Of a stretch of 64,000 nt of DNA, positions 8,541 to 21,313 are shown in pieces. A program made the translations under genes and the position numbers. The notes beneath the pieces were generated by a model that had not been told where the DNA came from, searched no databases, and worked only from the letters and a program-made list of their open reading frames with translations. The stretch comes from Natrinema mahii. Its GTDB lineage: Archaea > Halobacteriota > Halobacteria > Halobacteriales > Natrialbaceae. Within the stretch, counting starts at the first letter, position 1; every line of letters starts with the position of its first letter. The stretch covers positions 123,254-187,253 of the forward strand of contig JHUT02000005.1 in assembly GCA_000690595.2 (NCBI GenBank), read 5' to 3'.

Positions 8541-9002
8541 TTACTGGTAGTCGACCTCCCCTTCACCTTCACCGACCCACGCGCCGCGGTCGGGTTCGCG
8601 GGAGGCGAGTGGGTCGATGTCCTTGTACCACGGTACCGCCTTCAACTGCTCTTTGTTGTAGACGAAGTCGTGTTTCGTGTCCGCGGTGAACTCGAAGTTC
8701 TCCGTCAGGAGGATTGCATCGACGGGACAGACCTCCTCGCACAATCGACAGTAAATACACTGCCCGATGTGGAGGTTGTACTGTTCGCCGTTTCGCTGGT
8801 CGTCCATCACGATCTGAATCGTGTCGTTCGGACAGACGTTCTCACACTGGCGACACCAGATACACCGCTCCTGGCTGAACTTGTGGACGCCCCTGAACCG
8901 GGGCGAGACGTCGGGTGCGGTCTCCGGATACTCCACCGTGAAGGTGGAGCCGTCCAGTGCGTGTTTCATCGTCGTTGCCATCGATTTGAGTATCCCGATC
9001 AT
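8541..9002 (-). CDS. nuoI: Complex I ferredoxin-like subunit I (two [4Fe-4S])
   Basis: This 153-residue protein has two classic cluster motifs, CIWCRQCENVCP (residues 47-58) and CIYCRLCEEVCP (82-93), which ligate clusters N6a and N6b and pass electrons toward NuoB. ATG 9002 was chosen because it overlaps the nuoH stop (ATGA). The frame is open upstream, but that stretch lies inside nuoH. The N-terminal 40 residues contain a short amphipathic part that would sit at the membrane interface. Confidence 0.95.
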   Translation of the reverse strand: MIGILKSMATTMKHALDGSTFTVEYPETAPDVSPRFRGVHKFSQERCIWCRQCENVCPNDTIQIVMDDQRNGEQYNLHIGQCIYCRLCEEVCPVDAILLTENFEFTADTKHDFVYNKEQLKAVPWYKDIDPLASREPDRGAWVGEGEGEVDYQ

Positions 9003-10063
9003 GCTATCAGCCCCACGATCACTGCGGTCAGGACGAGATTGGCGAAAGCCAGCACAAGCAGTCCCTTCCAGCCGATCTCGATCAGTTGGTCGATCCGGAC
9101 CCGGGGCACCGCCGAGCGGAGCCACTGGGTCAGGAAGAATACCGCCCAGATTTTGACGAGGAACCAGACGATGCCGAGCGCTGCCGGGCCCGGGCCGGCC
9201 GGACCGCCAAGGAAGATCGTCGCGATGATCGCACCGCCGAGGAAAATGTGGATGAATTCACCCATGTACACCAACACGAAGTAGACCGAGGAGTACTCGG
9301 TCTGGTAGCCTGCGACGATCTCCGTCGGCGCCTCGGGGGTGTCGAAGGGGTTGCGACCAACCTCCGCGAAATTCGCCACGAGAAAGAGAATGAATGCGAA
9401 CGGATTGACCAGCGCGTACCAGCGCGGAATCTCCACGCCCGCGAGCGAGATCAGCGGTTCAGCCTGCGCCGCAACGATCTCGCTCATCTGCAACGTTCCG
9501 GCGAAGATTACGACCGACATTCCGGTAATAACGAGCGGAATCTCGTAGGCGATATTCTGTGCCACCGCGCGGAGGCCGCCGATCAGCGAGTACTTGTTCG
9601 CCGACGCGTAGCCGGCCATCACCAGGCCGAGACTCGCGATTCCCGAGACGGCAAAGGCGTACGCCAGCCCAACCTCGGGATCGGCGAGGTGGATACCGCT
9701 GCCCATCGGAATCACGGCAAAGCCAACCAGAGCCGAGCCTGCGATGATGATCGGTGCGAGGTCGTAGGCCGGCCGATCCGCGTTTTCCGGAATGACTAGT
9801 TCCTTCGAGAGCAATCGGATGGCGTCCGCGATGATGATGAATAGCCCTGCAGGGCCGAGACGGTTGACCGCAATTCGGTCGGTAAAAGCGGCAGTAACTT
9901 TCCGTTTGGCCCAGACGACCAGCCCGGCGTTCGCTAATATAAGGTTGCTTACTAGAAACGCTGCCAGAAACGCAGCAATGAACTCACCGGCAACGCCTAG
10001 TCCGATGAAGTCGGCGATACGGTCGGGAAGGAGAACTGTACTGGACTGAAGTAGCACAGCCAT
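8999..10063 (-). CDS. nuoH: Complex I quinone-site membrane subunit H
   Basis: This 354-residue membrane protein shows NuoH signatures 'RLGPAGLFIIIADAIRLLSKE' near the N-terminus and 'RNPFDTPEAPTEIVAGYQTEYSS', the conserved acidic loop lining the quinone cavity. ATG 10063 is preferred over a GTG at 10066. The stop TAG of the small upstream gene (10068-10066) is only two bases away, so this gene is probably translated by re-initiation from that ORF. Normally nuoH follows nuoCD directly; here about 9 kb of other genes separate them. Confidence 0.95.
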   Translation of the reverse strand: MAVLLQSSTVLLPDRIADFIGLGVAGEFIAAFLAAFLVSNLILANAGLVVWAKRKVTAAFTDRIAVNRLGPAGLFIIIADAIRLLSKELVIPENADRPAYDLAPIIIAGSALVGFAVIPMGSGIHLADPEVGLAYAFAVSGIASLGLVMAGYASANKYSLIGGLRAVAQNIAYEIPLVITGMSVVIFAGTLQMSEIVAAQAEPLISLAGVEIPRWYALVNPFAFILFLVANFAEVGRNPFDTPEAPTEIVAGYQTEYSSVYFVLVYMGEFIHIFLGGAIIATIFLGGPAGPGPAALGIVWFLVKIWAVFFLTQWLRSAVPRVRIDQLIEIGWKGLLVLAFANLVLTAVIVGLIA

Positions 10064-10065
10064 CA

Positions 10066-10392
10066 CTACTCCACCTCCGCCACTTCATTGTCCATCACGT
10101 CCGGGTTCGATACGGCTACTCTCAACCCAGTCTCGGGAGGAAAGGGCACGCTGACGCGCTGGACTGTTTGGACTCTTTCGTCGCGTACATCGGTGACCGG
10201 TGACGGCTGCAAGCTATTCATAATAAAATCACTTGGTATTCGATGTTCGGATACTACGTTCTCCAGCCCGATGCATGGTAAAGCTTCGAGTTGATGGTCG
10301 TATATTCCTTTCGAAATTAGGCAGTCATAGCCGGCGTAATACGGCTTTTCTCGGGCGATTTCGACTCTTTCCCGTTCTGTCCGTGATCCCAT
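10066..10392 (-). CDS. Unrecognised 108-residue protein coupled to nuoH
   Basis: I do not recognise a family. The predicted protein starts at ATG 10392 (a TTG lies eight codons upstream) and has no membrane segment and no cysteine cluster. It contains 'KPYYAGYDCLISKGIYDHQL' and ends 'NEVAEVE'. Its stop is two bases from the ATG of nuoH. A TATA-like element on this strand (10418-10432) would place the transcript start only about 8 bases upstream of ATG 10392, which implies a near-leaderless mRNA. It therefore appears to head a new nuoH-N transcription unit created when the operon was split. Alternatives are a degraded 3' fragment of a larger imported gene, or a true small regulator of the complex. 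Confidence 0.55.
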   Translation of the reverse strand: MGSRTERERVEIAREKPYYAGYDCLISKGIYDHQLEALPCIGLENVVSEHRIPSDFIMNSLQPSPVTDVRDERVQTVQRVSVPFPPETGLRVAVSNPDVMDNEVAEVE

Positions 10393-10417
10393 AGCGGAGA
10401 TATTTCGACTACCCAAT

Positions 10418-10438
10418 AGATTAATTTATAGTCACCAA
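10418..10438. promoter_or_regulatory. Divergent A+T-rich promoter between the nuoH unit and ubiA
   Basis: The bases read ATTAATTTATAGTCACC on the plus strand, starting within 'taga'; the reverse strand reads as a TATA box (CTATAAATTAAT) about 26 bases ahead of position 10400. It lies between two diverging genes, the 108-residue ORF (ATG 10392) and ubiA (ATG 10476), and could serve both. The 'GTCACCAA' at 10431-10438 recurs in the methyltransferase promoter. Transcript starts are inferred from archaeal TATA spacing. Confidence 0.5.
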
Positions 10439-10475
10439 TGAAAGTATACGGTAGAATGGCGGGTTGGGATTCGCA

Positions 10476-11399
10476 ATGACGGTCGATCCAAGAGTAGTAC
10501 TCGTATTACTCGTCGGGTTTGCAGCGATTAGTAGTAGACTGTACTACCCAAAAATCGTCGAATCACTTCTCGAGCGAACGATGCCGATGCTTCCCTCGAC
10601 AGTTTCCCACTGGGCACTGGCCGGTCTGGGATTCGTGGTTACAAGTGAGGCGAACGGAACGTTCAGGTGGGGCGACGTACTGTCGTTCGCGGCGGTTCCG
10701 CTGGTGATCCTTTTCGTCATTGCCGGAACGTGGCTTATAAACGACATCTTCGATAAGGAGACGGACGAACACGCCAATCCGGATCGACCGACAGTTCGTG
10801 GAACGGTATCGGACCGGACACTGTGGATCAGTGGCGGCGGGTGTGTCGTACTCGCTGGAGCCTTTGCAGCTACTGTTGGTTCGTTTGCGGTGGCGGTACT
10901 TGGGACGTTCCTGCTTGTCAACGTCATTTACTCGGTTCCGCCGCTTCGTCTCAAGTCCCATGCGCTCACGAATATGCTCTGTAATGGGACGCTCGGCGGA
11001 CTCAGCTTTTTGCTCGGGACCGCTGTGGTAGTTGCCCGACCAACACCGTTTGTTTCGAGTCTGTTCGTTGCGGTCACGATCGCCGTAAGCGTTAATATCC
11101 CGTACTGGGACTTGAAAGACGCAAAACACGACGCGAAATCGGGCTCGGATACGATCGTCGTCCGGTACGGGGCCGAAAACGTTAGACGAGGCCTCATGAT
11201 CGCGCTACCTGCGACGTATTTCGTGTTCGTCGCACTCCTTGCGCTGTTCGAATGGGTTCCCGTATTTGCAGGTATCGCCGCGCTCGCAGTGTACGTTCTC
11301 CACGCTCGTCGCGACGACTACCAGCAACTCGCGTACGAACTGGATTTGGTTAACGGGCTGAATCACGTGGTACTTGCAGCCGTGTACGTGTTGTCGTGA
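10476..11399 (+). CDS. UbiA-family prenyltransferase (possible terpene cyclase)
   Basis: This 307-residue integral membrane protein has about nine hydrophobic segments. Two aspartate-rich motifs typical of the UbiA superfamily are intact: N89-D90-x-x-D93-x-x-x-D97 ('LINDIFDKETD') and D212-x-x-D215-x-x-x-D219 ('WDLKDAKHD'), which bind the prenyl diphosphate through magnesium. UbiA enzymes transfer isoprenoid chains to quinone, haem, chlorophyll or lipid acceptors, and some members cyclise prenyl diphosphates. The P450 and methyltransferase neighbours favour a specialised metabolite. A TTG is in frame four codons upstream; I chose ATG 10476. The acceptor, if any, cannot be told from sequence. 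Confidence 0.88.
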   Translation: MTVDPRVVLVLLVGFAAISSRLYYPKIVESLLERTMPMLPSTVSHWALAGLGFVVTSEANGTFRWGDVLSFAAVPLVILFVIAGTWLINDIFDKETDEHANPDRPTVRGTVSDRTLWISGGGCVVLAGAFAATVGSFAVAVLGTFLLVNVIYSVPPLRLKSHALTNMLCNGTLGGLSFLLGTAVVVARPTPFVSSLFVAVTIAVSVNIPYWDLKDAKHDAKSGSDTIVVRYGAENVRRGLMIALPATYFVFVALLALFEWVPVFAGIAALAVYVLHARRDDYQQLAYELDLVNGLNHVVLAAVYVLS

Positions 11400-11465
11400 C
11401 GGCCCCAACCGATAGACGTCGAACCCGCTGCGGTAGTACTGACCACACTACGCAGTGGTGTGCAG

Positions 11466-11551
11466 CTATAGTAGCCACTGAAACGATTCACACACTGATC
11501 ACGACGCTGTCGTGCGATCAGGTGTGCAATGACTTTCAGTGGCTACTATAG
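11466..11551. mobile_element. 86-bp MITE-like inverted-repeat element
   Basis: Perfect 18-bp terminal inverted repeats, CTATAGTAGCCACTGAAA (11466-11483) and its complement (11534-11551), flank 50 bp that continue the palindrome imperfectly (ATT-CACAC-CTGATC on both arms). There is no coding capacity. No target-site duplication is evident in the immediate flanks. The shape fits a miniature inverted-repeat element mobilised in trans by a haloarchaeal transposase. Alternatively it could act as a bidirectional terminator between the converging ubiA and P450 genes. Confidence 0.65.
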
Positions 11552-11603
11552 AAGACGTACTTCGAGCGATCACCTGATCGCAACCGTCCTCCCTTGGAAT
11601 CGG

Positions 11604-12815
11604 TTAGGGGGCCTCGAACTCGACCGGGAGACGTTCGACGCCGTGCATAAACGTATTCCAGATCGGATCGGGAGTTGAGCAGTCAACGGACAGATCGTCG
11701 AATCGGGAGAGCAGCTGGGAGACAGCGACCTTCGTCTCGAGTCGTGCGAGTGATGCACCGAGACACGTGTGGATACCGTGTCCGTATCCGATGTGTGGAT
11801 TCGGGTGACGATCGGGAACGAACGTCTCGGCATCGTCGAATCGTCCCGAATCTCGGTTAGCCGATGCGAGCCAGACGATCACCGGCTTTCCGGGCTCTAC
11901 CGTCGTCTCGAGGACTGTCGTCTGGCGTGTGACCGTTCGGGAAACAGCGGGGACGGACGACTGATAGCGGGCGACTTCCTCGATTGCCGTCTCGAGTGCG
12001 GAGGCATTCCCAGCGAGTTCGTCGAACAGCGACGGATCTTCTTCAGCAAACGTACGAACGGTATTGGTGATGAGTCCGGTCGTGGTAATATTGCCCGCGA
12101 TGAGAAGGAGCGCAGGGAATCCGATAATTTCGGAGAAGGTGAGGGGGTCTCCATCGATATCGGCGTGAACAAAACGGCTGATAAGGTCATCACGTGGATT
12201 CTGCTTGCGCTCCTCAATGATCTCGTACATATACGTCGCAAACTCTTGGCCTGCCGCCGCTTGCTCGTCGATTAGCTCCGTTTCGTCCTCCGTTCGGATG
12301 CGGGTTAACGAGCGACACCACGACCGGAAGTCGCTACGATCGTCCTCCGGAATACCGAGCAGTTCCGCAATGACGATAATCGGTAGTGGGATCGCGAAAT
12401 CCGCCACGAGGTCCATCTCTCCGTCGTCTTCCACCTCGTCCAACAGCTCGGTAGCAAGAGATCGTATTCGGGATTCTAGCGGCTGTATCTCGCTTGGTCG
12501 AAAGAAATCGTTGGCGACATCTCGAAGTTCCGGATGGCGTGGTGGATCGATATTAAAAATCGTGTCGTCGAGGACGTTCATTCGATCGGTCGGTAGCTCG
12601 GTGTCTGACGAGAACGTTTCCCAGTCTTCCAGTACCGTCCGAACTGCGTCCCAGGTGAAGACCTCGTACCGGTCCTGGTCGGTATTGTAGTGGATTCCCG
12701 GCGACGTTTCTCGCATCTTCCTGTACCACGGGAAAGGATCGAGTTGCCGCTCGTCGGAGCGAAGTTGGGCAGGTGGGCGGACGAACGGATCATCTCGGGT
12801 TGGATTCGAACTCAT
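11604..12815 (-). CDS. Cytochrome P450 (bacterial class I type), copy A
   Basis: This 403-residue soluble P450 has an I-helix oxygen-binding motif AGNITTT (240-246), the K-helix ExxR at E280-R283, and a haem loop 'YGHGIHTCLG' with the ligand cysteine at 351. The usual Phe of the haem loop is replaced by Tyr. It resembles the P450 at 15075-16295 throughout (shared 'FNIDPPRHPELR/FAVDPPRHTKLR' and C-terminal 'DPIWN' segments), so the two are paralogs. No dedicated ferredoxin or reductase lies nearby, so electrons must come from partners encoded elsewhere. It converges on ubiA across the MITE-like element. The likely role is oxidative tailoring of the cluster's isoprenoid product; this is an inference. 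Confidence 0.93.
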   Translation of the reverse strand: MSSNPTRDDPFVRPPAQLRSDERQLDPFPWYRKMRETSPGIHYNTDQDRYEVFTWDAVRTVLEDWETFSSDTELPTDRMNVLDDTIFNIDPPRHPELRDVANDFFRPSEIQPLESRIRSLATELLDEVEDDGEMDLVADFAIPLPIIVIAELLGIPEDDRSDFRSWCRSLTRIRTEDETELIDEQAAAGQEFATYMYEIIEERKQNPRDDLISRFVHADIDGDPLTFSEIIGFPALLLIAGNITTTGLITNTVRTFAEEDPSLFDELAGNASALETAIEEVARYQSSVPAVSRTVTRQTTVLETTVEPGKPVIVWLASANRDSGRFDDAETFVPDRHPNPHIGYGHGIHTCLGASLARLETKVAVSQLLSRFDDLSVDCSTPDPIWNTFMHGVERLPVEFEAP

Positions 12816-12888
12816 CGGATATCAGAACCATACGTGGATGGGTAATAAAATTATTGTCACATATAGATTTGTTTTATGTGTTTGCCCC

Positions 12889-14259
12889 TCACTTTCGAAC
12901 TCGCATGGTGATCTCTTCGTTCGGCCGAAGCGTAAGCGACGCTCGGACCTCCGGATCGGGGTCGCTGAGTAATTCGAAATCGACATGCTGAGCGATAATC
13001 GAGATAATGATCTTCAATTCGATCATCGCGAACCGTTTTCCCAGACATGCTCGTGGTCCGGCACCGAACGGTATGTACGCACAGTCGGGTAGTTCCGTCT
13101 CGAATTCGTCGGTCCATCGCTCCGGTTCGAATGTGTCGGGATCAGCGAAAAACCGCCGGTCGGTCTGGATCTTATGCACTGGGATCGAAGCAACCGTCCC
13201 CGCGGGGAACTGATAGCCACCGATCTCGACCGGATCGACTGCCTCGCGGTACAGCTGAGGGGCCGGTGGGTAGAGGCGCATGGCTTCTTTGGCAACGGCG
13301 GTCGTATACTCGAGTTCCTGAAGATCCGTTAGCGTTGGCGAATCGCCTCCGAGAACCGCCTCGTGTTCCTCGTCCAGTTTCTCGCGTTTCTCGGGGTGTT
13401 GAGAGAGGAGAAGCCAGGTATACGTGAGCGCGAGAGACGTCGTATCGTCGCCAGCGATAAAGAACGTAATGAGATGATCGCGAATTTCTTCGTGCGAGAG
13501 TCCCTCTCCGTCGGTGCCCGCTGCACTCAGGAGGTGATCGAGGAAGTCGTTCGGCCGCTCCGAAGAAGTCGTCCGTTCCTCGATGATTCGATCTACTTTC
13601 TCCTGCAGCTCGGACGCTGTTCGGTTAAAACGAAGGTTAGTCGGCGTCGGAACCCACCTCGGGAGATACGACGACAGATTTCGCGGATCCGACCGTTCGT
13701 TCAGGGCATCAGTTGTCCGACCGATAACGTTGTCGCGTTCGGAGATCTCCAGGTCGAACATCGATTTCGAAATGATCCGCAACGTGAGATATGACATCTC
13801 TTCGCGTAGCGAGATCACTGCTCCGTCGTCCCACTCGCGAATGAGATTCTGGGCGTACTCCACCATTATCGAGGTGTATTCCGAGATTCGATCTCTAGTA
13901 AACATCGGCTGCAACGTCTGTCGTTGTCGCCGCCATTGTTCTCCCTCAGTGAAGATTATCCCGGACGGACTGATATCTTGGCCACCGAACTGATCGGCGA
14001 AGAACTTGGTGTAGTCGTCAGAATCGGTGATCAATATCTGTTTCGCGTACTTTGGATGATAGACCGAACAGAAATTCAGGTTTCCGATCCGATATTCGAC
14101 GATCTGCCCGTACTTCTCGAGTCGGTCGTGAAACGCGAACGGGTCGCGAGCGAGGTGGTGCATGTGTCCGATCACTGGCAGTCCAGTTGGTCCGTGCGGG
14201 CGGGATCTGCCTCGTTCGATCGGTGACCCGTCAGATGCGGTTCGACGTTTTTCAGCCAT
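12889..14259 (-). CDS. Cytochrome P450 (CYP4/CYP102-like fatty-acid hydroxylase type), copy B
   Basis: This 456-residue P450 is of a different lineage from its two neighbours. It shows an N-terminal proline-rich hinge 'PHGPTGLPVIGHMHHL', I-helix AGDDTT (269-274), ExxR at E325-R328, PERF-like 'PERW', and haem motif 'FGAGPRACLG' with the cysteine at 405. The FxxGxRxCxG form with Arg is typical of class II/CYP102-like and eukaryotic P450s that hydroxylate fatty acids or terpenoids. ATG 14259 gives a normal N-terminus; the frame is open about 56 codons further upstream, but that part looks non-coding. The gap to copy A is 73 bp, containing copy A's promoter. Confidence 0.93.
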   Translation of the reverse strand: MAEKRRTASDGSPIERGRSRPHGPTGLPVIGHMHHLARDPFAFHDRLEKYGQIVEYRIGNLNFCSVYHPKYAKQILITDSDDYTKFFADQFGGQDISPSGIIFTEGEQWRRQRQTLQPMFTRDRISEYTSIMVEYAQNLIREWDDGAVISLREEMSYLTLRIISKSMFDLEISERDNVIGRTTDALNERSDPRNLSSYLPRWVPTPTNLRFNRTASELQEKVDRIIEERTTSSERPNDFLDHLLSAAGTDGEGLSHEEIRDHLITFFIAGDDTTSLALTYTWLLLSQHPEKREKLDEEHEAVLGGDSPTLTDLQELEYTTAVAKEAMRLYPPAPQLYREAVDPVEIGGYQFPAGTVASIPVHKIQTDRRFFADPDTFEPERWTDEFETELPDCAYIPFGAGPRACLGKRFAMIELKIIISIIAQHVDFELLSDPDPEVRASLTLRPNEEITMRVRK

Positions 14260-14646
14260 TACAGTTGATAATTTCTTCCGAGGAAATACTATTTTCGATA
14301 GTTCAGTGGGTGGATAATTACTCCGGTCGTGTCCGATAATATCCAGTGTGAATTGAGTCTCCGTTGCACGTCTTAATGCCGATGATCGACCGTACGACCG
14401 GGACGGACGCCAAAGCGGACAAACCATTCCGAATTCGAACGCTGCTCGTCACCGAGCGAACGAGCAGGTAGCAAACGAGAGGCAAGAGGCATTGACTGCC
14501 ACGTGAATCGTCCCGATCGGGAGGACACAGATCTGGTTTCGCGATCGAGCAGCGTCCCTAACCTGCTAGCCAAGGACGACAGTTGGATCGTTATTCATGC
14601 ATAAAGGCACAAAATACTTAATTATATATCTTCAATTAACATTCGT
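14260..14646. promoter_or_regulatory. Intergenic region with the MTH865-like gene promoter
   Basis: These 387 bp separate two diverging genes and no convincing gene is visible. A TATA-like run CTTAATTATATATC (14617-14630) sits about 23 bases before ATG 14647, giving a near-leaderless transcript to the right. A weaker A+T patch near 14262-14290 could serve the P450 to the left. The rest shows only ordinary composition. Confidence 0.5.
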
Positions 14647-14904
14647 ATGGTAGACAGAGATGAACTTCGCGGACAAATTGTAGAAGCCGTCGAGGACGCG
14701 TCCTATCCAGTCACAGACATCATGGAGTTAGTACCAGCCCTTCCACGGGGACCGAGTACACGGTTCGAGTCGGGTGATTTTTCGACGACACCGATGGAAC
14801 TCTCGATGGATATCCCACAAGGTTCATTGAACTTTCCGTACGAAACGCCCGAAGACTTCGCGGACGACTTGCTCGACGAGATGGAGAAGGCCGAGATAAT
14901 CTGA
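14647..14904 (+). CDS. MTH865-like small acidic protein
   Basis: This 85-residue acidic protein matches the small archaeal MTH865 family (helical, EF-hand-like fold in the solved methanogen member) by the pattern 'REQIVEA.EDA.YPV....ELVPALP.GP.TRFE', seen here from residue 8 to 40. It ends in an acidic helix 'DFADDLLDEMEKAEII'. The molecular role of the family is unknown. Haloarchaeal genomes usually carry such genes outside metabolic clusters; here it stands alone between two P450s that face the other way and has its own strong TATA box. It may be a regulatory or carrier-like partner of the cluster, which is speculation. Confidence 0.72.
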   Translation: MVDRDELRGQIVEAVEDASYPVTDIMELVPALPRGPSTRFESGDFSTTPMELSMDIPQGSLNFPYETPEDFADDLLDEMEKAEII

Positions 14905-15074
14905 TTCACTGGACGAGGTAATACCTCTGATCCTCCACTCAACGACGGAATCGCGTGGGTACGCAAACGCGGCCCGGACTGCATCGGGGATTCATCCCAA
15001 CTCCCGTGAAGCCGACCGACCGTCTTGGGGCTGAATCTCGTCGTCGGACATATACCGTCGTCTCACGGACCGGA

Positions 15075-16295
15075 TTATTTCGGTTCGAATTCAATGTTGA
15101 GTTCCTTGAAGCCGTGTAGTGCCGGATTCCAGATTGGATCTAGTTCGTCGTCGACGAGGCGGATATCGGTGAGTCGTTCGAACAATGTCCCGAGTGCTTT
15201 CCGCATGACCAGCCGTGAGAGGGTTGCACCGATACAGATGTGTACTCCGTGGCCGAACGATAGGTGCGGATTTGGTGAACGGTCGGGGACGAACGTCTCC
15301 GGATTGTCAAACGTCGATCCGTCGCGATTAGCCGAGGCGATCCAGACCATCACGAGTTCCCCTTTCTGCAGTTGTTTTCCGTGGAACTCGAAGTCACGGC
15401 TGGCCATCCGGGTCGGTTTCGGGAACGTCGGACGGTACCGGAGTACTTCCTCTATTGCAGTGGCCAGTGCGTCGTCGTTCCCTGCGAGGTCGTCGAAGAG
15501 ACCCGGGTCCGAGTTCCAGAGACAGGTCATCGCGTTCGCCATCTCGAGGGTCGTCGTTGCGTTACCCGCCAGCAGGAGCAGAATGCCGTAGCCGACGATA
15601 TTGTCGATAGGCATCGGCTCTCCATCAATTTCGGACTGTGCTAGCAAACTGATGAAGTCGTCACCAGGCTCTTCACGGCGCTCTCTCGCCAATCGAGAGA
15701 ACAATTCGTTCATCTCCGTACTCGCCTGTTCTTGTTTCTGGATGGACTGTTCGACCGAGGAAAACTGGCCGCGAGTAATAATGTTATTCCAGCGAACGAA
15801 CGTATCGATATCGTCACTGGGCAATCCGAGCATTCGAGTAATCGTTCGCACCTGGATCGGCTGGGCGAAGTCCTCGATGAATTCCATTTCCCCGTCATCA
15901 GCGATGTCATCGATGAGGTCGTTCGCGAGTCGTTCGACGACGGGACCGTACTCGCGGATATTGTCCGATTTGAAGAACTCGTCAGCCGGTTTACGGAGTT
16001 TCGTATGTCGAGGGGGGTCCACCGCGAAGATCGTATCCCGAATCAGCCCGTTTCTGACGGCCAGGTTCGGCGTCGATTTGAATCGATCGTGATCGGTAAG
16101 TGCCTCTTTGGCGGCATCGTACCCAAATATCTCCCAGTACCCCTGTTCCTTGTTGAATCGAACGGGATGGCTTCGTCGTTGCTTTCGGAGCCACGGAAAC
16201 GGGTTGCGTTGTCTTTCCTTTGATCGCAGCGGCTCGATCGGAGACATCCATCCGGCGAGCGTCGGCTCTTCGTCGGGCATTGTCATATGTTTCAT
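15075..16295 (-). CDS. Cytochrome P450 (bacterial class I type), copy C
   Basis: This 406-residue P450 has the I-helix motif AGNATTT (243-249), ExxR at E283-R286 and haem loop 'FGHGVHICIG' with the ligand cysteine at 354. It is a paralog of copy A (same length, parallel sequence blocks). Several ATGs lie close together at the start (codons 1, 4 and 6); position 16295 is the longest. A TATA-like run (16300-16335, e.g. TATAATAATATTATA) lies just upstream. With the oppositely oriented methyltransferase it shares a 288-bp divergent promoter region. It probably oxidises the same pathway intermediate series as copy A. Confidence 0.93.
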   Translation of the reverse strand: MKHMTMPDEEPTLAGWMSPIEPLRSKERQRNPFPWLRKQRRSHPVRFNKEQGYWEIFGYDAAKEALTDHDRFKSTPNLAVRNGLIRDTIFAVDPPRHTKLRKPADEFFKSDNIREYGPVVERLANDLIDDIADDGEMEFIEDFAQPIQVRTITRMLGLPSDDIDTFVRWNNIITRGQFSSVEQSIQKQEQASTEMNELFSRLARERREEPGDDFISLLAQSEIDGEPMPIDNIVGYGILLLLAGNATTTLEMANAMTCLWNSDPGLFDDLAGNDDALATAIEEVLRYRPTFPKPTRMASRDFEFHGKQLQKGELVMVWIASANRDGSTFDNPETFVPDRSPNPHLSFGHGVHICIGATLSRLVMRKALGTLFERLTDIRLVDDELDPIWNPALHGFKELNIEFEPK

Positions 16296-16531
16296 ACGGA
16301 AGATTATTAATTATTTCGACCCTATAATAATATTATATCTGGGCCAGTAACGTAGCCCGATATTGTGAGGCGAACACCCAATCGTCCTGCCGGTTGAGCC
16401 GAAACGATTCGTTTGTTGAGTATCGTGACGAAATCCAATTCCCTTCTGGGCGGGTGCCCATCCCACTGCCATCCGAATAAGTGGGGATTGAATTCGATCG
16501 ATGCGACAGTTGATGAATAAATAGATATTGA

Positions 16532-16549
16532 TTTATATATTGTCACCAA
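16532..16549 (+). promoter_or_regulatory. Promoter of the methyltransferase gene
   Basis: TTTATATATTGTCACCAA is a strong TATA-like element followed by GTCACCAA, the same octamer found next to the TATA box of ubiA (10431-10438). It lies 35-52 bases ahead of ATG 16584. The surrounding 16296-16583 region is A+T-rich and holds no gene. Confidence 0.5.
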
Positions 16550-16583
16550 ATAATTTATTTCTCCCCGGTTCGAATGCCCACTA

Positions 16584-17441
16584 ATGAGTTCGAACATAAC
16601 GAAAAGCGATATCCGAAAGTACTACGAGGAGAACCATCTCTCGTTCGAGGACGGCTGGGTTGAGGAACAGGACCACAAGGGAATCCACGTCGGCTACTAC
16701 GATGACAACCAGATGGATCACGACGAGGCCATCGAGAACATGACGCGGTTCGGAGCTGATCGAATCGATATCCAATCCGACGATCGCGTTCTCTGCGCGG
16801 GATGTGGAATCGGTGGCCCTGCAGTCTGGATCGCCGCAAACCGCGGTGCGAATGTGGTCGGAATCAATATCAGTGAATCTCAACTCGAGCAGGCGCGCAC
16901 GCTGGCGAAGAACGAAGGCGTGACTGATCGAACACAGTTCCAGTACGACGATTTCACGGAGATGTCGACGCTCGAGGAAGACGCGTTCGACGTCGTGTGG
17001 GGGCTCGAAGCGATTTGTTATGCCAAGAGCAAGCGAGCGTTCCTAGAGGAGGCACACCGCGTCCTTCGACCGGGCGGACGGCTGATCGTCATTGACGGGT
17101 TTATGAATATACGGTCCCCTTCCCCGTCGGGGAAGCGGAAGATGAAAAAATGGCTCGATGCGTGGGCGATTCCACACCTCACACACGTCGACGACTTCCG
17201 AGGATATCTCGACGAGATCGGGTACCGAGAACTCGAGGAGGAAGAAATAACCTCACGAGTGATCAAGTCACTCAAACTCATGTACCTGTACAGTCTGTAC
17301 GGGTATCCGGTCTCGAAGGCCCTCCAAATGCTTGGCCGGCAAACGGAATCGCAGGTTCAGAACACCGTTGGCTGCCATTACGTCTATCGATCGATAACCG
17401 ACGGCCTCTGGACGTACAACGTATTCACTGCCGAGAAGTAG
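16584..17441 (+). CDS. SAM-dependent methyltransferase (SmtA / tocopherol-MT-like)
   Basis: This 285-residue class I methyltransferase has motif I 'VLCAGCGIGGPAVWIA' (69-84, the SAM-binding glycine loop), a motif II acidic 'GINISESQLEQA', and the post-motif region 'FDVVWGLEAICYAKSKRAFLEEAHRVLRPGG'. The N-terminal 'YYDDNQMDHDEAIENM' resembles the small-molecule C/O-methyltransferases that act on isoprenoids and tocopherols. It is transcribed away from P450 copy C from a shared A+T-rich region with TATA at 16532-16541. The probable role is methylation of the cluster product; the substrate is unknown. Codon choice is more A/T-tolerant than in the nuo genes. Confidence 0.88.
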   Translation: MSSNITKSDIRKYYEENHLSFEDGWVEEQDHKGIHVGYYDDNQMDHDEAIENMTRFGADRIDIQSDDRVLCAGCGIGGPAVWIAANRGANVVGINISESQLEQARTLAKNEGVTDRTQFQYDDFTEMSTLEEDAFDVVWGLEAICYAKSKRAFLEEAHRVLRPGGRLIVIDGFMNIRSPSPSGKRKMKKWLDAWAIPHLTHVDDFRGYLDEIGYRELEEEEITSRVIKSLKLMYLYSLYGYPVSKALQMLGRQTESQVQNTVGCHYVYRSITDGLWTYNVFTAEK

Positions 17442-17665
17442 CTGACCCGATGCCACCTTGATCGATCGGTTTTGCAGGTTTCCGTGACTCGGTCCGGTTT
17501 CGTGTCGGTGCATCTGGGCTGTGTGCAGACCGTGTGAGTGTAGAATCGTCAGCCGGTCGCCGATCCGGTCGGCGGAACACTTGCTGAGTATCCTACGGAA
17601 CGCAGCACCGAATCCCCGGAAAGTATCGGCGATCGAAACTGTACCAGGGTTTCGAAGAGGGGTTC

Positions 17666-18211
17666 TCAGGAACCGCTATCGAAGGCATCGAGTGTAGCGA
17701 CTGCGTCGTCGATGGTCGGATGGATTTCGTCGGCGTAGTATTGAACGAAGTGCGGAGCGGGCTCGCTGACGACGACAGTCGGTATACCGTGCCTCCGAGC
17801 GTGTAGTAGCTCTGCCATCGTCCCACAGGACGGTTCTGGGAGATACGCGAGGAAGACATCCGCTTGTTCGACCAGTTCCAGATCCCGTTCGACGATCGAC
17901 GAAACGATCGAATCGGGAGTGTGTTCGGGGACGATTTCCGGTGATTCGAGTACGGCCGTGGCCGACGTGTCTTCAATTGCGGCCGTAATCGCGTCGAGAA
18001 ACGGTTCGCTCTGTAATTTCTCGAAATCGAGTGCTTGCAACGGATTGGTTCGATCGGAATTAACCGTCGCGAGCTGTTCGAATACATCCACGTATTGATC
18101 GACCGGTGAGAATCCGTGTTTATCGAGGAGCGTATAGATCCGTACTCGATAGTCGACGATGGTGTCTACGTCTCTGAAGTCGATCGGTCCAGCGACGAAA
18201 ACATCGGTCAT
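17666..18211 (-). CDS. Nucleoside 2-deoxyribosyltransferase-like protein
   Basis: This 181-residue protein opens 'DVFVAGPIDFRD' and contains 'LVEQADVFLAYLPEPSCGTMAELLHARRHGIPTVVV', the pattern of the nucleoside 2-deoxyribosyltransferase / DUF4406 Rossmann-like family (AGP motif, D-x-x-x-A and the GT-x-E-x-x-x-A catalytic Glu). Such proteins cleave N-glycosidic bonds or bind nucleotides. Its start (18211) overlaps the stop of the upstream ASKHA gene by four bases, so the two are co-translated. The actual substrate is unknown, and pairing with an acetate-kinase-like protein suggests joint chemistry on a phosphorylated or nucleotide-like metabolite. Confidence 0.75.
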   Translation of the reverse strand: MTDVFVAGPIDFRDVDTIVDYRVRIYTLLDKHGFSPVDQYVDVFEQLATVNSDRTNPLQALDFEKLQSEPFLDAITAAIEDTSATAVLESPEIVPEHTPDSIVSSIVERDLELVEQADVFLAYLPEPSCGTMAELLHARRHGIPTVVVSEPAPHFVQYYADEIHPTIDDAVATLDAFDSGS

Positions 18212-19194
18212 GGGTGCTGAACGCGGGGGCTGTTTTTAACTGGAACGCCCAGTATATCTTGCTTTCCGACGTGGACATCTCTGGCGATCATCGCTGCTCC
18301 GGCCGCGGTACTGAACTCCGAACAGTGTTGTACCGGTGCCAGTTCACCGAGCGACTCTCGTAACTTTCCTTGGACGTCAACAGGGGATTCAAGCCGGCTG
18401 AGCCGACCACTGAGCGCGATTCCGTCGAGTGATTCGTCGTGGACGTGGTTCGCGAATGCGAATAGGGAGTAAACGTTGTGGAGCGTCGCGAAGTAAACCA
18501 TTTCGAGAAGCTCCGGATCTAATGTTTCCTTTACGTCTTCGAACGTGTACCCCGACCGCCGCAGGATGCCGGAATCCATGAATATGTCTGAGAAATCGGC
18601 CTCGTCATGAAGCACGCGACGGACCGATCCAAGCCCTGCCCATCCGTGAACGAGACCGATCCAGTGGAAGGCACCAACGAGGCGTCCGTCGTAAACGAGT
18701 GTTGCCATTGCGGAGGAACTCGCGTTTGCTGCAATGAAGTGGTTCGCGTCACCGGTGAACTGATCCGCTGCATACCGAGTCATCGCCACCTTGTCTGCTC
18801 CTGTTATCGTATTGTAATGGCTAAAATACGGATGCAAACAGTCGATATGATGGTTTACACCGGGGAACGCGACTGTCGGAATGTCTGATTGCTGGAGGTC
18901 GTCGAAGACCTTCGAACCAGTTCCCGACGGGTGTCCGGCCCCGAGGTTATCAACAACACCTCGATTCTCTACGGTTTCTATCGGACGGATCTCTCCGAAA
19001 TTGTCGCCATAACTGTAGCCGATGGCCGCCATCTGGATCGCGTCGACATCGACGTGTTCGGACAGTAAATCCACATACGACCATTCGTTTTCGTTTTCCG
19101 GAGATCGTTCAATGACGAACGTCTCTCGATCTCCTGTCTCCGATACGAGACTAGTTTTTACGCCTGTTGTGGAATGATCTATTCCAATATACAT
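18208..19194 (-). CDS. ASKHA-fold protein resembling methanogenesis marker protein 12
   Basis: This 328-residue protein begins 'MYIGIDHSTTGVK', a phosphate-1 motif of the acetate kinase/sugar kinase/Hsp70 fold. The following blocks resemble the methanogenesis marker 12 (UPF0285) family as I recall it: 'AAIGYSYGDN', 'VENRGVVDNLGAGHPSGTGSKVFDDL', and 'IPTVAFPGVNHHID...YNTITGADKV'. That family is considered nearly restricted to methanogens and has no proven activity. ATG 19194 is about 20-25 bases from a strong TATA element, so the transcript is near-leaderless. It is followed by the overlapping deoxyribosyltransferase-like gene. An alternative is a distant FGGY/BcrAD-type ATPase. The assignment is from remembered sequence pattern, not a search. 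Confidence 0.65.
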   Translation of the reverse strand: MYIGIDHSTTGVKTSLVSETGDRETFVIERSPENENEWSYVDLLSEHVDVDAIQMAAIGYSYGDNFGEIRPIETVENRGVVDNLGAGHPSGTGSKVFDDLQQSDIPTVAFPGVNHHIDCLHPYFSHYNTITGADKVAMTRYAADQFTGDANHFIAANASSSAMATLVYDGRLVGAFHWIGLVHGWAGLGSVRRVLHDEADFSDIFMDSGILRRSGYTFEDVKETLDPELLEMVYFATLHNVYSLFAFANHVHDESLDGIALSGRLSRLESPVDVQGKLRESLGELAPVQHCSEFSTAAGAAMIARDVHVGKQDILGVPVKNSPRVQHP

Positions 19195-19212
19195 GGAATA
19201 CAGATACTATAT

Positions 19213-19231
19213 CACAAATATTTATATTTGT
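19213..19231 (-). promoter_or_regulatory. TATA element with 18-bp palindrome upstream of the ASKHA gene
   Basis: ACAAATATTTATATTTGT at 19214-19231 is an inverted repeat with 8-bp arms around TT. It includes the TATA-like core AAATATAAATATTT on the minus strand, about 20-25 bases from ATG 19194. A palindrome covering a TATA box is the expected geometry for a repressor operator, but the A+T composition alone could also produce it. Confidence 0.45.
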
Positions 19232-19273
19232 TGATTATGGAATCGTTCGTGTGAACTAGGGTAATGAAAAGAT

Positions 19274-19558
19274 TTGCGCTTCGCTGTCGGCGGTATGGGT
19301 CGAACAGGCGCAAAACTCCATGCTTTCACGCGGGGAGAGATACCGCCACAGACTCAACCGATAGCGCGTAGCCCGCACGTCTGCGAGTTATGTGATACTG
19401 TGAGAAACGCGGACGTGACTGGAGCGGTGAATATTCAGAGAAAGATAGCGAGCGTCCCCGAATAGGGAATATGAGTAACGATCGTTTGGCATGGCCAGCA
19501 GTCTATATGTCTCACCGACTTTCAGGACGTCTCGTACCGAAAGAATACACGGCCTGGA
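19274..19558 (+). pseudogene. TnpB (IS200/IS605-type) C-terminal relic
   Basis: The frame ending at 19465 reads '...HVCELCDTVRNADVTGAVNIQRKI', the end of the zinc ribbon and the RuvC-III motif (NAD-x-N/T-AA/GA-x-NI) of TnpB. After a frame change near 19463 the next frame continues '...NMSNDRLAWPAVYMSHRLSGRLVPKEYTAWNP', which has the shape of the usual C-terminal tail of haloarchaeal TnpB. The N-terminal 80-90 percent is missing and the remainder is frameshifted, so it is dead. It abuts the 3' end of nuoCD on the opposite strand and marks the border of the island. No TnpA lies nearby. Confidence 0.7.
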
Positions 19559-19632
19559 ATCCTCGTACCCCACCGCTGAGAAAATCGGAGGTTGCGAGGG
19601 AAGCGGACTTCGATTTGTGTGATTCGTGAGTT

Positions 19633-19650
19633 CCCGACCATCAGGGCGGG
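19633..19650 (+). repeat. Imperfect hairpin resembling an IS605-type right end
   Basis: CCCGACCATCAGGGCGGG is followed by 'atgaatgtca', downstream of the TnpB relic. It resembles the imperfect right-end hairpin and trailing 'ATGTCA' of haloarchaeal IS200/IS605 elements. The arms are imperfect and the TGTCA overlaps the stop of nuoCD (19658-19660). The call depends on the adjacent relic. Confidence 0.4.
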
Positions 19651-19657
19651 ATGAATG

Positions 19658-21313
19658 TCACCGATCGACTTCGCCGAGTACGATATCTAGACTCCCCAAC
19701 GACGCGATCAGGTCCGGGATGTACTCGCCTTCGGACATCTCGGGCAGTGCCGAGAGGTTGTGGAAACACGGGCTCCGGATCTTGAACCGACCCGGCTTGT
19801 CGGTGCCGTCCGAGCGGATGTAGATCCCGAGTTCGCCTTTCGCACCTTCGACGGCGCGATAGATCTCCGTGTCGGCGTCCGGCTTCAGCGTCCGCGGCAC
19901 GTTGCTCTGGACGGTGCGTTCGTCCTCGGGCCAGTCCTCGAGCAGGTCGAGACACTGCTCGATGATCTTCGCGGACTCCTCGACTTCTTGCATGCGCACG
20001 AGGACCCGAGAGTAGTTGTCACAGCCGTCCTCGGTGACGACGTCCCACTCGAGGTTGTCGTAGTAGCCGTAGGGGTCGTCCCGGCGGAGGTCGTAGTCGA
20101 TGCCCGAGCCGCGGGCGACGGGGCCGGTACAGCCGTACTGTTTGGCCACTTCCGGTTCCAAGATTCCGGTGTCGTGGGTCCGGACCTGGAAGATCTCGTT
20201 GCCGGTCAGCAGGTCGTGGTACTCGTCGACCTTCGCGGGCAGCCCGTCGAGGAAGTCGCGGGTCTTCTCGATGAACTCCTTGCGGGGCTCGGGCAGGTCC
20301 CAGGCGACCCCGCCCAGCCGGAAGTAGTTGAACATGAGCCGCTGGCCGGTCAGGTCCTCTAAGATGTCTTGGACGACCTCGCGGTCGCGCATGCCGTACT
20401 GGAAGATGGCGGTGAAGTCGCCGTAGACGTCGAGCGCGAAGGTCGCAAGCGCGAGCATGTGGGAGGCGATCCGGCACAGCTCCGCGCCCATCGTCCGGAT
20501 GACCTGCGCGTACTCGGGGACCTCGATGTCCGCGAGATCCTCGGCCGTACGCGCGTAGGCCCACTCGTTGAGGAGGCCGGCCGAGACGTAGTCCCAGCGG
20601 TCGGGGTAGGGCATGATCTGATGCCGGTAGGTCCCTTGCTGGCACATCTGCTCCTCACAGCGGTGCAGGTAGCCGATGTCGGGGTCGACGTCGACGACCG
20701 TCTCGCCGTCCAGGACCGTTTCGATGTGGAGGACGCCGTGGGTCGCCGGGTGGTGGGGACCGATGTTGAGGAACATCGTGTCCGACTCGTCATCGTGGTG
20801 GTCCGGCTGGACCGGGTTGGCGTGTTCGCTCAGGGTCACCAGCTGCGGTTTCTCCTGGTTGTAGTCCTCGGAGAGCGGATGGCCCTGCCACGTCTCGGGC
20901 AGGAGGATCCGTCGCGGGTCGGGGTGGCCCTCGTAGTCGATCCCGACGAGGTCGAAGGCTTCCCGCTCGTGCCAGTCGGCGGTTCGGAAGACCGGTTCGG
21001 CGCTCTGGCTGACCGGATCGTCGGTCGTCGTCGGCACGACGATCGAGACCTCCTGGGTCGGGTCGGCGTACTTCCGGAGGTGGTAGATCGACTCGTACCG
21101 GTCGGCGTACTGCTGGGCCGTGAGGTTCGCGAGGTGGTCGAAGCCGGCCTCGTCGCGCAGGTCCGAGAGGACCGATTGGACGTCGTCCGGCCGGACGACG
21201 AACCCCGGCGCGTTCAAATGGTCGTCGCGCGCGAGCGCGCGGTCACCGAGCAGCGCCTCGAGGTCGTCGTCCGATAGCTCGATCGCCGGGTCGCGCTCGA
21301 GTCCCGTACTCAT
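19658..21313 (-). CDS. nuoCD: Complex I fused subunit CD
   Basis: This 551-residue fusion has an N-terminal NuoC-like (30 kDa) domain with '[35 protein letters not shown]' followed by the 49-kDa NuoD domain from about residue 180: '[15 protein letters not shown]', '[11 protein letters not shown]' and the C-terminal '[27 protein letters not shown]'. The quinone-site His and Asp region is intact. The C/D fusion is normal in haloarchaea and many bacteria. Its ATG overlaps the nuoB stop. Downstream, where nuoH should follow, the TnpB relic and the island begin, so this gene now ends the proximal nuo transcript unless read-through is long. Confidence 0.95.

Follow-up and report, generated by a model that had tools for sequence, protein, structure and literature searches.

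A haloarchaeal sister clade of methanogenesis marker 12 and its NDT-like partner in isoprenoid-type gene clusters

Introduction

What does a homologue of methanogenesis marker 12 (MMP12) do in a halophilic archaeon? The question is raised by an open reading frame in a 64,000-nucleotide stretch of the Natrinema mahii genome (contig JHUT02000005.1; hereafter the window), which a sequence-only reading had assigned to an MMP12-like member of the ASKHA superfamily, with the suggestion that this family has a more general chemistry. According to the part of the published marker work consulted, several markers persist in non-methanogens and their repurposed functions are not confidently inferable (PMC9635834); MMP12 in haloarchaea is not named in the part examined (PMC9635834). 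In the open-licence literature we found neither a function for MMP12 nor a paper on an MMP12/UPF0285 gene in haloarchaea.

Results

The ORF (18208-19194, minus strand) encodes 328 amino acids from an ATG start with no internal stops, and a whole-genome search found one copy in the host. All four blocks from which the resemblance to the MMP12/UPF0285 pattern had been read, GIDHSTTG, GYSYGDN, ENRGVVDNLGAGHPSGTGSKVFDD and IPTVAFPGVN, are present in the translation. TIGR03281 (methan_mark_12, methanogenesis marker 12) was the single NCBIfam family found for the protein (E 8.1e-53, 179.7 bits), and the alignment spans the whole length (residues 1-319 against profile positions 1-325 of 326). Judged by profile score, this match is far beyond chance, although it lies 1.2 bits below the curated (equivalog) cut-off of 180.85 bits. 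Pfam returned zero families up to E 10, and therefore no match by sequence to a sugar-kinase, DUF1464 or BcrAD model; the result that would have contradicted the MMP12 assignment, a best match to a sugar kinase or BcrAD with none to MMP12, was not what the searches gave. FGGY/ROK sugar-kinase Pfam matches were likewise absent from the two haloarchaeal proteins tested, and one of three methanogen-type proteins tested gave a weak ROK match (E 0.0011). Since the window protein scores 179.7 bits and only two of the eight positive haloarchaeal genomes exceed the cut-off, it is best described, on sequence grounds, as a true MMP12 homologue in a sister clade, borderline and not filed as MMP12 proper.

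The distribution of the family in Halobacteria is patchy. TIGR03281 matched in 8 of 391 genomes, representing 7 of 86 genera, and exceeded the curated cut-off in 2 of the 391. A halo-type profile was positive for 2 of 125 genomes from the host's family, where the host is the sole positive member of its genus, and for 9 of 146 genomes from the family of genome G114. Across the phylum, TIGR03281 matched 235 of the 392 genomes sampled, nearly all outside Halobacteria; these are called methanogen-type here by family match and kinship. Of 52 pattern stretches in named genome contigs nine were confirmed, and every one of these belongs to a haloarchaeon (Haloarcula pellucida, H. amylolytica, Halocatena marina, Natrialba aegyptia, two Halosimplex, Haloarculaceae H-GB1-1 and two MAGs), and among 72,556 plasmid records one, a Halorussus caseinilyticus plasmid, was positive. 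McrA was absent from all eight MMP12-positive haloarchaeal genomes and present in both control genomes (2/2), in agreement with the original remark that the host shows no methanogenesis genes in view. A phage or virus origin was rejected: the MMP12-like protein had no phage match, and 17 pattern stretches in viral contigs yielded no confirmed case. A defence system was also rejected, with zero PADLOC models for this protein or for the NDT-like partner described below. Three genomes of one family (f15; G498, G544 and G451, loci L096, L097 and L098) gave very weak TIGR03281 matches (E 8e-5 to 5e-4), which may be remote ASKHA relatives.

Eight halo-clade and 19 methanogen-type sequences were aligned. 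The window protein is 37-54% identical to the former and 24-31% to the latter, and 18 positions are invariant in 27/27 sequences, including H7, T9, R78, K135, S159 and S160. All eight halo sequences differ around the SHGASPEK and SDxSSN blocks. Read by eye, the alignment shows that in the halo sequences GADK or LDK replaces SPEK, DHST replaces DHGT, SSS replaces SSN with loss of the preceding Asp, and the FAPG (or like) piece of the methanogen-type sequences corresponds to a four-column gap in 8/8 halo sequences. No Cys is conserved in the halo clade; the three columns with five or more Cys of 27 carry none in the eight halo sequences aligned. When 31 sequences were placed in a tree, a long branch separated the 12 halo rows from the rest (support 100/100, 100% of bootstrap trees), and a further tree, which had four more rows including one wrong ORF, agrees with it. 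A single origin of the haloarchaeal subfamily is the simplest reading.

Since the shared core is kept and the FAPG, SHGASPEK and SDxSSN regions are altered, it is plausible that the halo clade and MMP12 have an ATP-dependent chemistry in common, with a different substrate. To this extent the suggestion of a wider family chemistry is partly supported; a broader role for methanogen MMP12 itself would go beyond this comparison. The name "methanogenesis marker" does not cover the halo clade. Its members resemble MMP12 (TIGR03281, UPF0285) in whole-length homology, core motifs and size, but they sit on a long sister branch, with the window protein just under the cut-off, lack the FAPG piece, occur in a host without McrA and have another gene setting. 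At the 19 usable methanogen-type loci, of 20 asked for from the 235 positive genomes, no NDT-like partner was clustered with MMP12, and a 2-oxoacid oxidoreductase-like cluster, named by eye, recurs in some of them only.

The AlphaFold2 model of the MMP12-like protein had a pLDDT of 87.8 and a pTM of 0.90. Foldseek gave 257 matches at E 0.001 or better; the best 50 of these were nearly all ASKHA kinases, headed by acetate, butyrate and propionate kinases (4dq8_A, E 5e-11). The first 21 rows of VIA-align 2 were all acyl kinases (Z 16.6-19.8), among them butyrate kinase 2 (1x9j_F, Z 19.8, rmsd 4.0, 297 aligned) and Methanosarcina acetate kinase (1g99_A, Z 19.3, rmsd 3.6, 293 aligned). Next came MK0840, a putative sugar kinase (4bgb_B, Z 16.6, rmsd 4.3, 243 aligned) and, lower in the list, by CoaX (9b78_A, Z 15.7, rmsd 3.9, 232 aligned), a benzoyl-CoA reductase subunit (9gai_C, Z 15.4, rmsd 3.5, 207 aligned), and glucokinases, as well as hexokinase and ROK types at Z about 15. 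The predicted fold is that of an actin-like two-domain ASKHA protein, nearest to acyl (butyrate/acetate) kinases, and the ASKHA assignment made from the letters is upheld by the model.

Acetate kinases have the catalytic residues Arg91, Asp148, His180 and Arg241. When the MMP12 profile was compared with nine acetate kinases in local mode, the resulting alignment was weak but full-length (probability 42%; E 2.6e-4, for a single comparison), and in global mode it was nonsense. The weak local alignment, which is uncalibrated, does not place all four of these residues; in it the Arg241 stretch falls on an HG stretch of MMP12 and not on an Arg. The predicted fold is thus that of acyl kinases, while the substrate site seems to differ. 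Acetate and butyrate kinases (PF00871) are the closest solved folds, but the MMP12-like protein has no PF00871 match up to E 10. The MMP12 family profile found zero solved structures by sequence at E 1 or better, and single-sequence matches at E 0.2 and 0.57 were set aside as chance.

Directly downstream of the MMP12-like gene lies an NDT-like gene (17666-18211, minus strand, 181 aa), whose ATG overlaps the MMP12-like stop by 4 nt. The same order is found at six loci (the window, L068, L069, L070, L071 and L113, hereafter pair loci), and the genes overlap in all six, by 4 nt in the window, L068 and L071 and by 8 nt at L069, L070 and L113. PF05014 scores 26.4 bits on the window partner (E 8.3e-6) against a cut-off of 28.8 bits, and less in relatives. 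The model (pLDDT 83.5) matches NDT/MilB/DNPH1 folds at Z 11-14: 7o62_B (Z 14.2, rmsd 2.1, 125 aligned), NDT 8pqr_A (Z 13.0, rmsd 2.6, 131 aligned), MilB with CMP 4jem_B (Z 12.8, rmsd 3.0, 129 aligned), DNPH1 8rpt_B (Z 12.3, rmsd 2.7, 127 aligned) and BlsM 5vto (Z 11.8, rmsd 3.0, 128 aligned). MilB and BlsM are N-glycosidases of nucleoside-antibiotic pathways. The acidic E134, within a PSCGTxxE block, is invariant in 6/6 partners, and from fold and block together the partner probably acts as an N-glycosidase. Compared with NDT, DNPH1, MilB and BlsM, it shares the fold and the invariant block, but it falls below the PF05014 cut-off, has a longer middle part and forms a group of its own, with strong matches restricted to MMP12-like loci.

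This restriction is seen in the 391 genomes, 12 of which were positive with an NDT-like profile. The five strong matches (E 7e-88 or better) are all in MMP12-positive genomes, five of the eight, and the remaining seven are short, low-scoring matches with E 2.6e-5 or worse. The sixth pair is on the Halorussus plasmid. The NDT-like gene is absent at L072-L076 (tblastn, best E 0.008) and from G274 (genome search). In all, 6/12 halo-clade sequences have neither an NDT partner nor the terpenoid gene set nearby, and therefore the module is not their sole setting. On the 31-sequence tree NDT pairing requires three changes, with no single clean origin.

In the window the pair lies in a 9.7 kb low-GC island (9914-19661; GC 53.9% versus 65.9 and 66.2% on its two sides) that is inserted in the nuo operon, between nuoCD on the right (19658-21313, minus strand; best copy 92-99% identical in 25 congeners) and nuoH on the left (8999-10066, minus strand; PF00146 for 9801-10066). 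Besides the pair, the island carries genes for a UbiA-family prenyltransferase, three P450s, an MTH865-like protein and a methyltransferase. The UbiA gene (10464-11399, plus strand) matches NCBIfam UbiA-type models, all under cut-off (best E 7e-18), is 39% identical to a Halorussus UbiA, and by eye has both Asp-rich motifs. Two P450s are CYP119-like (11604-12815, minus strand, PF00067 E 9e-23, and 15075-16295, minus strand, PF00067 E 9.7e-27; 44% and 41% to L070 P450). The third (12889-14427, minus strand, PF00067 E 1.9e-91) is of the type found beside squalene-hopene-cyclase-like (SQHop-type) cyclases in other haloarchaea, being 34-35% identical to the cyclase-adjacent P450s at L148 and L149. 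The small MTH865-like protein (14647-14904, plus strand) is 49% identical to an L070 protein whose L012 copy matches PF07747 (E 8e-23), and the SAM-dependent methyltransferase (16584-17441, plus strand, PF08241 E 2e-20) has relatives at L070 (49%) and L071 (39-42%). A possible TnpB C-terminal remnant is present at the right edge (19268-19462, plus strand; PF07282 E 0.0039, under cut-off).

The island is missing at this site in the four congeners fetched out of 25 listed (86-96% nucleotide identity in the flanks), in which nuoCD and nuoH stand side by side. Homology of nuoH to congeners ends at 9913-9923, and the location of its 5' end within the diverged stretch fits entry of the island by recombination from a low-GC relative, which we infer to be its origin. 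The nuoCD-nuoH interval of Haloarcula amylolytica also contains a gene set resembling that of the island but arranged differently (L012:8388-15752, 54.7% GC). A similar set at this site is thus seen in two haloarchaeal families, with about 54% GC in both. The host genome also has a second nuoCD-like gene (G000:C6:159638-161248, 76% identical).

Each of the six pair loci has UbiA, SQHop-type cyclase, P450 or methyltransferase genes nearby. UbiA is found at four (the window, L069, L070 and L113); P450 and a methyltransferase of the window's family each at three (the window, L070 and L071); a cyclase at three (L068, L069 and L113), with none near the pair in the window; a deaminase-type amidohydrolase at three (L069, L070 and L113); a glycosyltransferase at two (L068 and L071); and polyprenyl synthase with MMPL and ABC transporters at two (L069 and L113). 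The amidohydrolases show similarity to deaminases of the 5'-deoxyadenosine/SAH type, in every case below the cut-off. On the Halorussus plasmid, 11 genes run on one strand: GMP reductase (at this one pair locus only), amidohydrolase, MMP12-like, NDT-like, three ABC-type, cyclase, MMPL, polyprenyl synthase and UbiA. Read from their families, these recurrent neighbours would fit prenylation (UbiA, polyprenyl synthase), cyclisation (SQHop-type cyclase), oxidation (P450) and methylation, and at some loci also purine handling (GMP reductase, deaminase-type amidohydrolase) and export. Halosimplex-like loci without the NDT pair have a FilR1-type regulator among their neighbours, and at L076 the MMP12-like gene is near an aromatic acyl-CoA oxygenase-like fusion and a benzoate-CoA ligase family protein. 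In this MAG (L016/L076:9995-13360) the fused FAD/old-yellow-enzyme protein, which is like salicylyl-CoA 5-hydroxylase, is encoded directly downstream of a divergent MMP12-like gene.

SQHop-type cyclases were located at L068:7376-9190, L069:13642-15882, L113:15813-17894, L148:8625-10595, L149:8985-10925 and L150:8654-10804. A DWDD block is present in five of these six and not in the L150 ORF as called; at L068, L069 and L113 it reads DWDDTA. PF13243 was above cut-off for the L069 and L113 cyclases, and the squalene-hopene cyclase equivalog TIGR01507 scored 190.8 bits on the L113 cyclase against a cut-off of 431, far below it. Haloarchaeal SQHop-type cyclases often stand beside an MMPL/RND transporter. 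The 391 genomes gave ten cyclase matches, five strong and five weak. Three of the five strong genomes lack MMP12; an MMPL-type transporter is nearby in all three (3/3) and a P450 of the 12889-14427 type in two of them. The cyclase is not specific to the MMP12-like/NDT-like module.

A hopanoid pathway proper was considered and rejected. HpnH exceeded the cut-off in none of the eight MMP12-positive haloarchaeal genomes, and since 14/14 control genomes also match HpnH below cut-off, such weak matches mean nothing. Relatives of the window locus are like hopanoid clusters (SHC, HpnG, HpnH, HpnN) in combining a DWDD SQHop-type cyclase, an RND/MMPL transporter and a nucleosidase-like enzyme. They are unlike them in that the SHC match and the HpnN match of the MMPL protein are far below cut-off, HpnH over cut-off is lacking, and UbiA and P450 are found instead. 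A 2019 review states that archaea lack homologues of sterol and hopanoid genes (PMC6770870); the haloarchaeal squalene-hopene-type cyclases with RND transporters contrast with that statement.

Discussion

In the explanation that we favour, tentatively and with a little under even confidence, the MMP12-like protein has no part in methanogenesis. It would be an acyl- or phosphotransferase that depends on ATP and acts, together with the N-glycosidase, on a putative nucleoside-derived intermediate of an isoprenoid product. It would be the ATP-using half of a two-gene module found in acquired isoprenoid-type clusters of a few haloarchaea. The substrate of the N-glycosidase would be a purine nucleoside or nucleotide intermediate, whose base-sugar bond it would break. 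The MMP12-like protein would spend ATP on forming a phosphate or acyl-phosphate, either on the released moiety or on the linked one. In this way a nucleoside-derived piece could be prepared for, or removed from, the terpenoid product. The whole-length TIGR03281 match, the missing McrA, the acyl-kinase-like fold, the invariant core, the overlapping NDT-like gene and the recurrent neighbours speak for this account. Against it count the six halo-clade sequences outside the module, with L076 beside genes of aromatic acyl-CoA type, the HG stretch at the position of Arg241 together with the weak similarity to acetate kinase, and the occurrence of GMP reductase at a single locus. The methanogen homologue may carry out similar ATP chemistry on another substrate.

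The main rival is salvage of a nucleoside by-product, which we consider unlikely although it has the best standing of the alternatives. Deaminase, N-glycosidase and an MMP12-like kinase would recycle a modified nucleoside to base and sugar phosphate; 5'-deoxyadenosine or an SAH-type product of the cluster methyltransferases would be an example of such waste, and the terpenoid genes would be bystanders or the waste source. The sub-cut-off resemblance of the amidohydrolases to deaminases of such compounds agrees with this, as do the NDT fold of the partner and the presence of sugar kinases among the ASKHA folds at Z about 15. However, the amidohydrolase is at 3/6 pair loci only, acyl kinases outscore hexokinase and ROK sugar kinases (Z 16.6-19.8 in the first 21 rows), and the window's methyltransferase family is at 0/3 cyclase-bearing pair loci.

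It is rather improbable that the MMP12-like protein is a non-catalytic ATP sensor or scaffold regulating the N-glycosidase. The overlapping genes and the loss of the Asp of the methanogen SDxSSN block would suit such a role, but in half of the halo clade there is no N-glycosidase to regulate, and the polar core is conserved. Still less probable is a remnant of ancestral methanogenesis, kept vertically in haloarchaea with its old job. Methanogenesis remnants do persist in other archaea according to the part of the marker study consulted (PMC9635834), and on the tree the halo clade lies next to methanogen-type sequences from its own phylum; against this stand the patchy occurrence (8/391 Halobacteria genomes, 2/125 in the host's family and the host alone in its genus), the low-GC island with an empty site in 4/4 congeners, the plasmid-borne copy and the absence of McrA. 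Least credible is an ATP-driven electron activase (archerase) of the BcrAD/HgdC type serving an iron-sulphur enzyme: the superfamily is the same, benzoyl-CoA reductase subunit 9gai_C is matched at Z 15.4 and a fused aromatic oxidoreductase adjoins the MMP12-like gene at L076, but the lack of a conserved Cys in the halo clade speaks against it and no iron-sulphur reductase was found among the island proteins scanned.

Returning to the favoured explanation of a transferase acting with the N-glycosidase, a bolder form of it can be put forward, which we regard as doubtful. A few haloarchaea would make a cyclic terpenoid with a nucleoside-derived (purine or ribosyl) group, the relative of MMP12, a universal protein of methanogens, would be the ATP-dependent enzyme that builds that group together with the N-glycosidase, and methanogen MMP12 would perform kindred chemistry on a cofactor. 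Making terpenyl purines of the 1-tuberculosinyladenosine and agelasine type would call for a class II cyclase, along with a prenyl diphosphate and a purine nucleoside. The resemblance is one of inferred logic only, and the proposed haloarchaeal terpenoid would be an archaeal counterpart of ribosyl-hopanoids or terpenyl purines.

For the family, the halo clade ties an MMP12 relative to a partner enzyme and to a recognisable kind of pathway, which makes its chemistry testable. Named hosts of this clade include Haloarcula pellucida, H. amylolytica, Natrialba aegyptia, Halocatena marina, Halorussus caseinilyticus and Halosimplex.
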